Below, piece by piece: positions 1,401 to 48,251 of a stretch of 64,000 nt of DNA. Every line of letters begins with the position of its first letter. Positions within the stretch are counted from its first letter, which is position 1. A program made the translations under genes and the position numbers. Origin of the DNA: a bacterium (GTDB lineage: Bacteria > Hinthialibacterota > Hinthialibacteria > H5-UNCL2); assembly GCA_015075175.1 (NCBI GenBank), contig JABTUV010000004.1:248001-312000 (forward strand). Direction: 5' to 3'. The notes under the pieces are model-generated. The model did not search any database and was not told the DNA's origin. It worked only from the letters and a program-made list of their open reading frames with translations.

Positions 1401-1580
1401 GAAGATTTCTCCCTTCGGTCGAAATGACAGATACGGTCGAAATGACAGATAAGGTCGAAAGGACAGATACGGTCGAAAGGACAGGTACGGTCGAAAGGAC
1501 AGATACGGTCGAAAGGACGTCTGCGGTGGAATTGACAGCCGAGGTCGAAGGGACTTGGCTCGCGGTCGAAATGACAGGGT
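1401..1580. repeat. Tandem array of 18-base units (dispersed repeat family A)
   Basis: About nine units starting GGTCGAAA and usually ending GACAGATAC follow each other from 1417 at 18-base spacing (1417, 1435, 1453, 1471, 1489, 1507, 1525, 1543, then 1564). The array is preceded by the word GATTTCTCCCTTC. The same unit occurs inside the lptD start (3934-3987) and as an inverted pair at 48157-48251. Because 18 is a multiple of three, an artefact ORF of Ser-Thr-Val-rich repeats crosses the array on the minus strand. Confidence 0.9.
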
Positions 1581-1594
1581 AGTTCATCATGCGC

Positions 1595-4015
1595 TCAGTA
1601 GGGAACGGCCTGGCGCTCAGCCAGTTCGCGCAGGGAATGGTCCTCGTCGTCGGGGAACTTGAGCCGCACGCGGGTGGAAATCTCGAACTCGCTGTCGCGG
1701 TTCTCGCGGTCGTCCTGCCGCAGCAGGATGTCCCACCACCAGTCGTGCAGGTCGCGGGTCAGGCGCACGCTGGTCTTGCGGCTGGTGCCCTCGTCCAGGT
1801 CGAAGCGGTTGTCCAAAGCCAGCGTCCACTTGTCGCTGACGGGATGAAAGAGGGAGAGGTTCAGATGCTCCTGGCCCTGGCCCTCGATGGGATCGTATTC
1901 GGACCACCCGAGCGTAAGCATGGTCGCCGGCAGCGCGGGCAGGCGAAGGAAGGTGACACCGGCGTAGTTGGCGCGCGATTCGTCTCGGTTGATGTCGTAC
2001 TGGCTGTAGGAGGTGAAGGAAAGCCAGTCGTTGGGATGCACGAAGAACTCGGCCACCAGGTCCTCGTGCTCGTCGGTGCGTTCGCTGTCGGTAAAGTATC
2101 CGCTGGAGAGAGCGGCGCGCACCACGTCCTGGGTACCGCCGCCGGCGCGCTTGCCTTGCAACTTGGCGTCCAGCCGGTAGGCAAGATGGCCCTCGTCTTC
2201 ACGATACAGATCCGTTGCGTCGATAAAGGGAAAAGCGACCGGTTCCTTGGTGACGCGGGTCACGCCCAGCGCCGGATCGGGCGCGCCGTAGTCGATGTCC
2301 TGCAGCTCGTCGCTCATGGTCCAGCCCTCGATGGTGAAGCGCGGCTGGATGACGAGACGGGTCTTCTCGTACTGGTTATCCAGAAAGGAATCGAAGTGGT
2401 GGGCGAGGCGGGTCTGAAAGGCGATTCCGCCGCGACCCAAGAGGCGCGTGGCGTCGTCGAACTCGTACTCGACCAGGTTGTTCTCGGGCAGTTGCGGCAG
2501 GAGGGGCGTTGAAACGAAGGAGCGGCGGCGGACTTGGGGGTCCTGATACTCGGTTGCGCGCAGATTGACGAAGGGAATCGCCCGCAGCGCCGGCATGAGA
2601 GAGAACGGCGCGGAGAACTCCAGGTTGAGGTCGGCCCGGTCCACCTCGTCGATGAACAGCGTCTCACGGCCGTCCAGACCGGCTCCGGCCTCGCGCCGGA
2701 AGCGTCCCACGTCCGCCGTGGCATAGTAGTAGATCGGCAGCGAATCGGACAACAGGTCCCGCTTCAGCTCGAAGCGCACCTCCGGCGAGTGCTCCGTGTC
2801 CGGCAGCGTCGAAAGAAAGAAATCGTCCAGGCGGTGCTTGGCGAAGATGCGAAAATTGTAGAGGTCCTGGGTGCGAGCCAGGTTGATATACGAGTTGCGC
2901 TCCAGCTCGAGATCGTCCTGGTTCCAGCCCTTGGCTTTCTCCTCCTGCTCGAAATCCTGGTTGAAATCCCGGTCCGAAAGATGCTGATAGCGCGCCGTTA
3001 GGAGAAAATCGTAGGGCAGCTTCTGCCAGTGGTAACCCGCGATCTTGTAGCGGTCCCCGTCAAAGAGATACTGGTCGTCCTCGTCGTCCTGGTCGATGCG
3101 GTAGCCGTAAACGCGTCCCCACAGCCGGTCGTAACCGTCGTCGCCGGGGGCGTGATAGCGGTTGCTGACGCCGTATCCCACGCCCAGGTTCTCAAAGTAA
3201 TCCACGTACACGTTGGGCCGCAGGTAGGTGTTGTAGTGATAGAGAAAGCGCCCGTAGGCGGTCGCGCCCTTCTTGCTGGAATAGCCCGGATAGAGAAAGA
3301 AGGCGAAATCCCGCCGGCGCAGCGAGCGCGTGAAGTACGGCAGCCAGCCGACCGGCAGGTTGTGCACGCGATAGGTCGTGCCGTAGGTCCAGTAACGCAC
3401 GCCCGGCTTGACCACGATGCGATCGCTGACCACCAGGTAATGCGGCTCGACCAGGTCGCAGGTAGTCAGCGTGCCCCTGTGGACGACGACCGTCTTTTCC
3501 GGGGTGATCTCGATTCTCTCGCCGGTCAGGAAATAGGAGTCGGTGGAAAAGCGGGCCTCGCGCAGGGTGAAGTGCTGCCGGCTGGCGTCATAAACGACCT
3601 CCTCGGCGAAGACCAGGTTCCCCGCGTCGTACAGGATGACGGAGCCGCTGGCCTCAATGAGGGTGACCTTGGCGGCCTGGTGGCGAACGATAATCTCGCG
3701 GGCGGTGATGGAGCGGTCGCCGAAGATGACGTTGACGTCGCCGCCGTCCACGCCGGTGAGGCGGCCGATCTTCTCGGCGACCTGGTAGGTAAAGACGCCG
3801 CGCGTCACCTCCAGCATGGTGTCGCCGACCTGGTAGGCGGCGCCCTCCTGTGCAGAGGCGCTTCCCGCAGCCATCCACAATAGGGGCACGAGGACGGCCA
3901 GGAGCCGGCGGGGCGGAGAAGATTTCTCCCTGCGGTCGAAATTACAGTTGCGGTCGAAATGACAGTTGCGGTCGAAATGACAGCTGCGGCGAGCCATGGC
4001 GACCCCGCCCATCAT
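1595..4015 (-). CDS. lptD: LPS-assembly outer-membrane protein LptD (OstA/organic solvent tolerance family)
   Basis: 806 residues from ATG 4015, four bases after the stop of the STAS gene, so probably translationally coupled. After a hydrophobic signal core (about residues 40-56, ending ASA) comes an OstA/LptA-like N-terminal domain (about 60-200) with repeated beta-jellyroll patterns such as AREIIVRHQAAKVTLIEASG. A long C-terminal region rich in alternating aromatic and charged strands (YHYNTYLRPNVYVDYFENL and so on) fits a barrel that inserts LPS in the outer leaflet. The n-region of the signal peptide is abnormal: three 18-base repeat units are read in frame as CHFDRN-type hexapeptides, giving an n-region of over 30 residues with three cysteines. 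ATG 3997 is an alternative start but does not avoid the repeats. Length fits LptD proteins (about 750-900). Confidence 0.87.
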   Translation of the reverse strand: MMGGVAMARRSCHFDRNCHFDRNCNFDRREKSSPPRRLLAVLVPLLWMAAGSASAQEGAAYQVGDTMLEVTRGVFTYQVAEKIGRLTGVDGGDVNVIFGDRSITAREIIVRHQAAKVTLIEASGSVILYDAGNLVFAEEVVYDASRQHFTLREARFSTDSYFLTGERIEITPEKTVVVHRGTLTTCDLVEPHYLVVSDRIVVKPGVRYWTYGTTYRVHNLPVGWLPYFTRSLRRRDFAFFLYPGYSSKKGATAYGRFLYHYNTYLRPNVYVDYFENLGVGYGVSNRYHAPGDDGYDRLWGRVYGYRIDQDDEDDQYLFDGDRYKIAGYHWQKLPYDFLLTARYQHLSDRDFNQDFEQEEKAKGWNQDDLELERNSYINLARTQDLYNFRIFAKHRLDDFFLSTLPDTEHSPEVRFELKRDLLSDSLPIYYYATADVGRFRREAGAGLDGRETLFIDEVDRADLNLEFSAPFSLMPALRAIPFVNLRATEYQDPQVRRRSFVSTPLLPQLPENNLVEYEFDDATRLLGRGGIAFQTRLAHHFDSFLDNQYEKTRLVIQPRFTIEGWTMSDELQDIDYGAPDPALGVTRVTKEPVAFPFIDATDLYREDEGHLAYRLDAKLQGKRAGGGTQDVVRAALSSGYFTDSERTDEHEDLVAEFFVHPNDWLSFTSYSQYDINRDESRANYAGVTFLRLPALPATMLTLGWSEYDPIEGQGQEHLNLSLFHPVSDKWTLALDNRFDLDEGTSRKTSVRLTRDLHDWWWDILLRQDDRENRDSEFEISTRVRLKFPDDEDHSLRELAERQAVPY
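3917..3987. repeat. Three 18-base family A units inside the lptD signal-peptide region
   Basis: Units at 3934-3951, 3952-3969 and 3970-3987 begin GGTCGAAAT, next to GAAGATTTCTCCC (3917-3930). They are in frame with lptD and encode the repeated hexapeptide CHFDRN ahead of the hydrophobic signal core. Confidence 0.9.
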
Positions 4016-4018
4016 GGA

Positions 4019-4705
4019 TCAGGCCAGGCGGCGGATCGCGTCGATGAACTGATCCACCTCGAACGGCTCGTGAAAGAACTCGGAAACGCCCAGGCCGGCC
4101 AGCGCGGCCTGGTCATTCTGCTCTATAAGGACGACCACGGTGGGAATGCGGGCCAATTCCGCTTCGCGCTGCTTGGTTGCGAGCAAGCGGCGGATTCCCT
4201 CCCGGTTTCCCGCCACGTCGACAAGAAAGAGGTCCACGGGCCCTGCGCGCAGCATGGAGAGCGCCGTCTCGCCGTCCCCGGCCGCCTGCACCGCCAGGTG
4301 GTTGACCTTGAGCAGCTCCTCGTAGAAGGCGCGGCTCTCCCCGCGCGAAATCAGCATGACCACGCGCTTGTTCTTGAGCGCGAACAACGCCTCCGGCAGG
4401 CTCGGGCAGACCACCAGGATGCGATGCAGGTTGACCTTGTCGAACACGCGCTTGACCTGCGGCGTAAGATTGATGAGCAACATGCGCTGATTGCGCTGCG
4501 CCAGTTGCTGCTGCAGCAGAATCAGCGCCCCCAACCCCGAACTGTCGATGTACACCACGCGGGCGAAGTCCAGCACGATCGGCGCATCCAGCGGCGTCGT
4601 GACGGCCTCGATGCGGCGGCGGATGTCGGGAGAATACCGGCTGGACAATTCGCCGGACATCTCCACGACCGCCACGTCCCCGATTCTACGCACTTCGTAG
4701 TGCAA
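4019..4705 (-). CDS. STAS-domain protein fused to a degenerate response-regulator receiver domain
   Basis: 228 residues from a TTG codon at 4705. Residues 1-100 are a STAS (anti-sigma-factor antagonist) domain: FARVVYIDSSGLGALILL at about 48-64 holds the conserved serine (S55/S56) phosphorylated by RsbW/SpoIIAB-type kinases. Residues 114-228 have the fold pattern of a CheY-like receiver, with a candidate phospho-Asp at 163 (LFLVDVAG). However, the N-terminal acidic pair is missing (LISRGES instead of a DD motif) and the conserved Lys is replaced (HEPF instead of KPF). It is therefore probably a pseudo-receiver. It heads the lptD/GH57 series, with a good promoter at 4813-4839. Likely a partner-switch regulator; no anti-sigma kinase is in the window. 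Confidence 0.8.
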   Translation of the reverse strand: MHYEVRRIGDVAVVEMSGELSSRYSPDIRRRIEAVTTPLDAPIVLDFARVVYIDSSGLGALILLQQQLAQRNQRMLLINLTPQVKRVFDKVNLHRILVVCPSLPEALFALKNKRVVMLISRGESRAFYEELLKVNHLAVQAAGDGETALSMLRAGPVDLFLVDVAGNREGIRRLLATKQREAELARIPTVVVLIEQNDQAALAGLGVSEFFHEPFEVDQFIDAIRRLA

Positions 4706-4860: not shown

Positions 4861-6130
4861 CTAATCTTGACCGGACTTCCCGCCGCGATGCTGGCCGTGG
4901 AGAATCAAGAGGTCCAGGTCATCCACCACGCCGTCGCGGTTCAGGTCGGCGCTGCCCGGCGTGGGCGTCGGCGTGGGAGTGGGCGTCGGCGTGGGGTGAA
5001 GGTGGGCGTCGCATCGTGAGATGGCCGGCGGAACTGTGCGGCCCCAGGTCGTACACTTGCAGTCCGGCGACTTCGCTGCCCGCGGCGAACAGCGTGCGCC
5101 CGCGAATCGCCAGCGAGGGCAGGACCGTACCACCTCCCGGATTGGGGATGAGTCGCCGCACCACCGCCGGATTGGGAAGGCCGGGGATGTTCCCCGCCGG
5201 ATCACGCACGTCGATCAGGGACAGGCCGGACGAGAGCACGTGGGAGACCACCGCGTAGCCCTCCTCTGAAAGCGCCACGTCCAGGAGTTGCCGGCCCACG
5301 CTCACGCTGTTGACGCGCCGCAGGAGCCGCGGTTCGGTGGCCGCCATGATGTTGAGAAAACTGGACGACGCCGCAAAGAGATGATTGTTGCGCCAGGCGC
5401 AGCGCAGCGTGTAGGACGAAACGGGATTGACGCTGAAGGCGACGCTCTCCCACGCCGGCGAAGCCAGGTCGGGATAATTTGCGTCGTTGAGGGCGATGAC
5501 GGCGTAATTGCCGTCGAACCGCCGACCCGAAAGGAAGGCGCCGTTGGGCGACTGCGCGATGTCGAAGGCCAGGTTGGCGTCGAACTGGCTGAGAAGATAA
5601 ATCCTGGGCGTCGCGTTGAGGTTGGTAAGGTCATACACCTCCAGGCGCCGGTCGCCGCCGGAGACCCACAGGCGTCCGTTGCGGATGATCAAGCCGGAGT
5701 GGGGATAGACGCTGGAGCCGCGGCCCGGCCCCACCACGACGGGACGCTCGGGATCGGCCAAGCTGTAAAAGTAGAGCCGCTCGCGGACGTCGTTGCTGGC
5801 GACGAGGTATCCGTCGCCCGCGGCCAGGTCGCCGATCCAGCCGCCGCCCTGTTCGCCCGCGGGGATGGGCGCGAAACGCAGAAATCGGGGCGCGCTGGGA
5901 TCGGCGATGTCCACGACGGCGATTCCCTGCGACTGGTCGGCCAGGTAGGCGTAGTGCTGGTAGAGCACGATCTTGCGCGCGTTGGTGAACTGCGTCAACT
6001 GGGCTTGGGGGATAATCGGGGTCGGCGTCTGGGCGAGAACCGGCGTCACGTGAAGCAGGCAAAGGAGGAGCGCTCCCCAACCAGCTGAGGCGCGGCCAAG
6101 AGATTGACAGGTGCAAGGCGTCACGCGCAC
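4861..6130 (-). CDS. Exported LVIVD-type beta-propeller protein with PT linker and dockerin-like C-terminus (one frameshift)
   Basis: GTG at 6130 or 6124 gives a good signal peptide (hydrophobic WGALLLCLLHVTPVLAQ); the open frame upstream of this to 6271 looks non-coding. The body consists of repeats such as YAYLADQSQGIAVVDIADPS and LSSGLSLIDVRDPAGN, the LVIVD blade pattern of surface propellers. Near 4990-5035 the frame must change: the following frame reads a (TP)n linker and then DLNRDGVVDDLDLLIL, an EF-hand-like dockerin loop with D/N/D/D/D at positions 1, 3, 5, 9 and 12, ending at TAG 4861-4863. The slip is in a GC-rich direct repeat coding Thr-Pro, a natural site for sequencing error or replication slippage. 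Such PT-linked ends are common on exported proteins of polymer-degrading environmental bacteria. Function unknown. Confidence 0.75.
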
Positions 6131-6552
6131 GAAAGGAATGTAAGGCGACTGCAAGTCAGTGTCAACGTACCAGCGACGCAGAACCGAAACCGACAGGCCT
6201 GAGCGGCTGCGAAGCAGCGTGTCGAGCGTCGGCTTGCACGCGGAGGACCAACGTACTACTGTGGCTATCATTTGTGTGGCATCAGAACCCGGTAGTTGCG
6301 CGCGGCTGCGCCGCTGGCAACGGCTGTGCAGATCACAATGCCGGCTCGAGGCCGCACTTCGACTTCGGCCTTCGGCCTTCGCTCGAATGCTGAGGGTGGT
6401 TTATTGTAAGACTCAGGGCTGTCGGGGTGGGGTACACATTTCGTTCAGGGCTGCCAGTTCCAGATTGCGTGCCACGGCACTGCGACTTTAGTAACCGTAC
6501 TCTGGCTCAGGTGCGCGTTGACCCTGTCTTGGTTCGGCGGTATTGTACTCAC
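6131..6552. other. Non-coding stretch with a family B repeat (6188-6228)
   Basis: No convincing gene is visible in these 422 bases. At 6188-6228 lies ACCGACAGGCCTGAGC followed by a GGCTGCGAAGCAGC hairpin and GTGTCGA, the dispersed family B element seen again at 9671-9749, 16305-16340 and 63574-63652. The rest is low-complexity and may be decayed sequence. Confidence 0.6.
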
Positions 6553-48156: not shown

Positions 48157-48251
48157 AGCTGTCATTTCGACCGAAGGGAGAAATCTTCTGCCTCCCACTC
48201 GAGCCGCGGTAACGGCGGGTGAGATTTCTCCCTTCGGTCGAAATGGCAGCT
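48157..48251. repeat. Family A repeat as a near-perfect inverted pair
   Basis: Arms 48157-48186 and 48222-48251 are reverse complements at 29 of 30 positions (AGCTGTCATTTCGACCGAAG ... AGATTTCTCCC), around a 35-base loop. The same word forms the direct tandem arrays at 1417-1580 and 3934-3987. Confidence 0.88.

Follow-up and report, generated by a model that had tools for sequence, protein, structure and literature searches.

The lptD gene of this bacterium opens with three nearly identical 18-bp units placed before the signal core of its product, and this raises the question of whether the repeat belongs to LptD, as a device for altering its N-terminus, or came in from elsewhere in the genome. 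The window analysed is the whole stretch of DNA of 64,000 nucleotides, and the features which bear on the question are as follows.

1595-4015, minus strand: lptD open reading frame, 806 aa from ATG 4015 and 800 aa from ATG 3997
3863-3904, minus strand: hydrophobic core of the signal peptide (LLAVLVPLLWMAAG), with the Kyte-Doolittle maximum at residues 32-43 from ATG 3997
3921-3947, minus strand: whole arm of the dispersed element, its head carrying one substitution (TGTAATTTCGACCGCAGGGAGAAATC), encoding CNFDRREKS
3952-3965, minus strand: second head (duplicated tip), encoding CHFDR
3970-3983, minus strand: third and outermost head (duplicated tip), encoding CHFDR
1404-1577, minus strand: a further array of this element, made up of one arm and about 7 additional heads, and separated from the lptD stop end (1595) by 17 bases
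48159-48249, no strand assigned: complete 91-bp element, intergenic, two inverted arms 77 bp apart, fold z -8.7

The frame at 1595-4015 is assigned to LptD by its Pfam domain (E=1.5e-9; 38.1 bits against a cut-off of 22.4). An earlier note on this DNA had described three 18-bp units in frame between the start codon and the hydrophobic core, and this was confirmed for both candidate ATGs (4015 and 3997); the hexapeptides were also read correctly there, the minus strand giving CHFDRN-CHFDRN-CNFDRREKSS within the frame. The three cysteines which it reported are at residues 6, 12 and 18 from ATG 3997, all within the units, and Cys 180 is the only other cysteine of LptD. The repeat was located by TRF at 3931-3989 with a period of 18, 3.3 copies and 95% matches, and by repeat search as unit copies at 3931, 3949 and 3967 which are 91-96% alike. 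The gene upstream of lptD ends at 4019, 3 bases before ATG 4015, and we infer that ATG 3997, which has GGGCGGGG shortly upstream, is the likelier start. From this ATG the protein reads MARRS-CHFDRN-CHFDRN-CNFDRREKSSPPRR-LLAVLVPLLWMAAG-SASA-QEG, with an n-region of 31 residues and a net charge of +5, the signal peptide being placed by Kyte-Doolittle hydropathy in place of a dedicated predictor.

The innermost unit, left unseparated in the earlier note, continues into a complete 26-nt arm (3921-3946), and the lptD copy reads as one arm with two extra tips. The array at 1404-1577 keeps a period of 18 and then decays, so that copies of the element stand at either end of lptD. Within the window GGTCGAAANGACAG (up to 2 mismatches) occurs 15 times against 1.46 expected, and none of 100 shuffles reached 15. 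Elsewhere in the window, an ORF for an LVIVD-repeat protein (4919-6271, minus strand) seems to continue in another frame, in the ORF at 4861-5205 (PTPTPTPTPGSADLNRDGVVDDLDLLI), with a PT-rich linker and an end which we take to be dockerin-like; this suggests a putative frameshift near 5000-5030 or a sequencing error in the LVIVD-repeat ORF.

The units are dispersed, as had been proposed: the core 14-mer GGTCGAAATGACAG (up to 2 mismatches) occurs 473 + 456 = 929 times in the 4.98-Mb genome, whose assembly is 84% complete, and the reversed pattern 5 + 3 times. The repeat does lie in the LptD signal peptide, but it is not peculiar to LptD, the same element being scattered through the genome. Contig C1 has 118 matches in its first 800 kb, and these fall into 35 clusters, typically of two inverted heads 74-79 bp apart and often with extra heads of the same direction outside the inverted pair. 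The element, about 91 bp long, has two inverted arms of 26-28 nt; each arm is a small REP-like hairpin in which a G·A/A·G mismatch is conserved. The consensus of 47 cores of 83-103 nt, for which 20 of the source stretches were picked by match to the lptD N-terminus or to the first pattern list, is CTGTCATTTCGACCGAAGGGAGAAATC followed by about 35 variable central bases and then by the reverse complement. TGTCA lies outside the arm stem (consensus CTGTCA beside the stem), and the three reading frames of the arm give CHFDRREKS, VISTEGRNL and LSFRPKGEI.

As DNA, the whole element at 48159-48249 folds as one hairpin (-34.7 kcal/mol, z -8.7), while a lone arm is weak and not below its shuffles (-2.6 kcal/mol, z -0.3). 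Covariation in the arm was counted over 51 distinct arms from 80 named loci, and the arm pairs 7-23, 8-22, 12-18 and 13-17 changed on both sides 6, 11, 26 and 3 times (shuffle maxima 3, 7, 20 and 2), in loci which were recruited by a pattern fixing most arm positions and leaving position 18 free, the varied arms being further copies at these loci. Positions 10-20 stay G-A in 47 of the 51 arms, and 11-19 stay A-G in 50. In the source genome 12-18 is the only pair to rise above its shuffles (5, with a shuffle maximum of 4), and the pairs 5-25 to 9-21 have no covariation beyond chance there. Matched changes between the two arms number 17 in the source genome against a shuffle maximum of 13, and 14 in 29 foreign elements, which is within shuffles (mean 9.3, maximum 21). 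The stem of each arm is supported by this covariation as a putative REP-type hairpin. Rfam at gathering threshold found only tRNA in the window, and the element has no curated RNA family match there.

The placement of the copies was sampled in 2.05 Mb (contigs C1, C34 and C45), where 111 clusters were reduced to 102 by excluding 9 single heads without an arm-like neighbour, and genes were called by a simple codon-usage script. On this basis 17 of the 102 overlap a called CDS and 29 have one arm only. By the separate criterion of bearing an arm, 85 of 100 clusters lie outside called genes and 15 overlap them, although called coding sequence makes up 76-79% of the sample. The 17 overlaps fall mostly at ORF ends, either as N-terminal extensions with a plausible later start or as a C-terminal stop supplied by the element (DFSLRSK*), and at least two (C1 502670 and 1180199) resemble chance matches. 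Five ORFs (C1 1229067, C34 182219, C34 323762, C34 339367 and C45 25256) apparently end in or a few residues from a copy, and four of them terminate in (D)FSLRSK or a similar sequence, the stop codon that comes next being that of the element itself.

Tandem growth of the heads follows a common pattern. In 72 tandem runs from 61 clusters, the arm-bearing head is innermost in 64, with 2 ambiguous and 6 unassigned, and the runs hold 2 to 8 units across the loci of the genome. Among the 61 intergenic runs the commonest modal period is 22 (25 runs), followed by 17 (13), 18 (10), 20 (5), 23 (4), 19 (2) and 21 (2); 12 of the 61 have a period of 18 or 21, and most periods are not multiples of three. 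The spacers are locus-specific, with an identity of 0.83 within runs against 0.43 between them, and 9 of 40 arrays have an exact repeat of the spacer in their outer flank, against 1.25% in the control. Since spacers are alike within and not between runs and the flank can repeat the spacer, the tips appear to duplicate locally and outward, and to take in bases of the landing site. Half an arm with a fixed flank was also tried as a strict definition of the tandem unit, and it holds at best partly: in only 22 of 65 arrays does the first spacer match the arm's inner three bases exactly. In G068, a genome which belongs to the same domain but not to the window's class, a tandem series of diverged TGTCATTTCGACC tips (locus L119, 2100-2340) adjoins an arm that an unrelated inverted repeat interrupts.

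A second envelope gene was found to contain the units. In MreC (L075:434-1441, Pfam 5.6e-24) the 18-bp units are read in another frame and end in SVISTEGRNL. Against a solved MreC, query residues 128-201 and 240-319 correspond to chain residues 7-75 and 76-158, leaving 202-239 extra, the second of the two stretches being weak (i-Evalue 11). In a same-class genome (G002) the stretches that match query 93-204 and 237-329 adjoin each other in the DNA, and three other genomes match no further than query 201-203. These alignments show that the element has also inserted in frame into a second envelope gene. Further candidates were set aside. An ORF of 882 aa (L073:2787-5435) with a whole element in its middle was dropped as insertion evidence, having no match in 13 same-class genomes and no Pfam family; a cytochrome-like ORF (L081:5826-7040), whose lipoprotein-like signal is preceded by five units, has a TTG start after the repeat; and a short ORF at C45 200803, in which a signal-like stretch follows one arm, was put aside over its start. 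For annotation there is a warning here, as CHFDRREKS, VISTEGRNL or LSFRPKGEI in a predicted protein can be translated element.

The lptD starts of relatives, whose comparison the earlier note had proposed, did not bring out a series of unit numbers: none of 13 same-class lptD genes has the repeat or the motif at its locus, their N-termini are ordinary where the start is readable, and the nearest relatives, among which no genome of the source's own genus or family turned up, are only about 30% identical, a distance at which the empty site itself is unseen. Outside the class the element is widespread, and in nine named carriers of it LptD is either missing or far more distant than in the same-class genomes. 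TGTCATTTCGASCGNAGNGAGAAATC is present in 15 of 386 genomes including the source genome, with a reversed control at 0 in all, and the named GTDB records contain at least 114 stretches with the arm. The 80 listed loci belong to Bacteroidota (Flavobacterium, Mucilaginibacter, Thermonema), Ignavibacteria, Calditrichota, deltaproteobacterial MAGs, Gammaproteobacteria (Luteimonas), Omnitrophota, Riflebacteria, Hydrogenedentota, Chloroflexota, Planctomycetota, Troglogloeales, Actinomycetota and Clostridia, the phyla being assigned from the record titles. Nearly the same arm thus occurs in about a dozen phyla among the matches listed. The isolates among the listed carriers are mainly Bacteroidota and Luteimonas, several phyla being represented by MAGs only, and because these isolates carry the element, contamination of MAGs cannot explain all carriers. 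Inverted pairs 49-114 bp apart were seen in 38 of the 80 listed loci, and same-direction heads 17-24 bp apart in 7.

At one orthologous intergene the Flavobacterium species differ: some have the element, others a diverged or partial form of it, and one lacks it altogether; in one of the copies the two arms have undergone matching changes. Two species have, at this intergene (L298 and L296), the centre of the element in opposite orientations, as after inversion or independent insertion. Plasmid and phage collections gave no match to the 91-bp element. The sequence of the element, its peptides and the topic were searched in the open-access literature, most subscription journals lying outside that search, and no description was found.

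A mobiliser was sought among Y1 transposases, and no RAYT linked to the element was found in the loci examined, apart from neighbours at chance level. Neither of the two Y1_Tnp loci of the source genome has the motif, and the nearest copy is 6 kb off; nine other carriers gave 29 Y1_Tnp loci, 2 of them with the motif. In nine Flavobacterium genomes 30 Y1_Tnp loci were scanned (at least 40 matches being listed) and 2 have the motif, which by our estimate is roughly what copy density would give. Two carriers (G013 and G386) have many copies and no Y1_Tnp match, and a Y1 profile of 13 sequences found nothing on the 80 listed element loci. A Y1 gene at L096 has a diverged copy about 0.2 kb upstream, yet another palindrome stands on either side of this gene, and a Y1 match at L354 has a whole element about 0.8 kb away; neither was accepted as cognate. 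Other repeats surround the Y1 genes of the source genome: one (L001 1130-1980, contig C46) lies between inverted copies of a different, AAAATTAGGGTCAGCGCCTAATTTT-like palindrome, which looks like its own REP, and the second (L002, about 1160-2150, contig C5) lies amid another tandem, dispersed-looking repeat with EFKLQFGPTQAKACTPNRS in open frames. No target-site duplication or other insertion scar rises above shuffles in the 47 cores, whose flanks are often altered by tandem tips.

Known repeat families offer close parallels. REPINs, in the excerpts of PMC3116915, likewise pair two inverted REPs across a short spacer into a long hairpin and are present in hundreds of mostly extragenic copies, with solo REPs as remnants and with tandem clusters that include flanking sequence; unlike them, the present element has no adjacent RAYT in the loci examined, has its arm in about a dozen phyla and mostly duplicates the arm tip. 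The REP superfamilies GTAG and CGTC, from the excerpts of PMC3733652, share the short imperfect palindromes, the dimers mostly with tags outward, the tandem groups with flanking DNA, the occasional copies within ORFs and the ends supplying stop codons, but the tag beside the stem is TGTCA here, neither GTAG nor CGTC. The E. coli REP recognised by TnpA-REP (PMC8266576, in part) also has two conserved mismatches in the stem beside a conserved tag, though these are AA-GC there and G.A/A.G here, and the tag differs. Rickettsia palindromic elements (PMC10969869, in part), likened by description only, are translated palindromic repeats in frame in protein genes, as is found here in MreC and, through the start-codon argument, in LptD; in the present genome, however, copies overlapping a CDS are a minority (15/100) and mostly at ORF ends. 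What was found here is inverted arms in one hairpin, an arm which is itself a hairpin and a high, mostly extragenic copy number, and a RAYT flanked by the same REP was absent from the loci examined. The element behaves like a REPIN and is therefore called REPIN-like; it is not called a REPIN because its tag falls outside the GTAG/CGTC superfamilies and the RAYT association is missing in these loci.

Whether the lptD repeat is translated turns on the start codon. If the start lay downstream at a non-canonical codon such as CTG, the repeat would be 5′ untranslated; several other N-terminally overlapping ORFs do have a plausible later start, and the excerpts of PMC3733652 warn that N-terminal intragenic REPs may be misannotation. 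In lptD, however, the check for a downstream start which the earlier note had suggested found no ATG, GTG or TTG between the repeat and the core; the first is a GTG within the core, and a start there would strip the basic n-region. Because the first canonical start lies in the core, the repeat is translated unless an unusual start is used, probably as three short repeated peptides, and we regard the untranslated reading as highly improbable. The earlier note itself had seen a contingency repeat, in which gain or loss of 18 bp shifts the n-region in six-residue steps and tunes export. The step is arithmetically right and causes no frameshift, the period being 18, and the likeness of the units and the range of unit numbers across the genome also speak for it. 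Against it, the same arrays are mostly extragenic with periods mostly indivisible by three, because of which a tolerated insertion fits better than a device built into LptD; same-class lptD genes also do without the repeat, and the insertion looks tolerated and lineage-specific because all 13 lack it. Tuning of this kind seems very unlikely to us, and the repeat is probably a tolerated, lineage-specific insertion, likely neutral.

The nature of the inserted element is a separate matter. The long matched terminal arms, the short variable centre, the high copy number and the presence or absence at one Flavobacterium intergene would all suit a MITE of a classical DDE transposon, but no target-site duplication was found above shuffles (many of the cores having tandem tips adjoining), each arm is a covarying hairpin with conserved mismatches, which is a REP feature, and the one-armed clusters (29/102) also count against it, so that a MITE is unlikely. 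The lptD repeat very probably stems from a REPIN-like element that is high-copy and non-autonomous; it would be a solo copy, now partly decayed, which inserted after the start codon and ahead of the signal core. The most likely route would be a REPIN-like element mobilised in trans, followed by local duplication of the tip: after landing, the arm's outer tip would be duplicated in tandem with a few neighbouring bases, and in lptD two duplications of period 18 would have kept the frame. The 31-residue n-region bearing the repeat should then be cleaved off with the signal peptide. We infer this transposition route, the local source of the duplications, and the cleavage and tolerance by the export pathway.

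The lptD event alone is a curiosity, since intragenic REPs and Rickettsia palindromic elements are known; an intragenic REP is a known kind of event, and it is the REPIN-like family that is apparently undescribed. REPs are usually treated as families co-evolving with a RAYT in related hosts (in part after PMC3116915). The specialist interest lies in the same 26-nt arm occurring in Bacteroidota, Gammaproteobacteria, Chloroflexota, Omnitrophota and others without a linked RAYT in the loci examined. Tentatively, and with slightly less than even confidence, we suggest that there may be a single TGTCA-tagged REPIN-like family outside the GTAG/CGTC superfamilies, kept near letter-for-letter in about a dozen phyla, which would spread horizontally or be held by a broadly conserved factor, and which would duplicate its hairpin tips outward in tandem where it lands and sometimes insert itself in frame into envelope proteins such as LptD and MreC.
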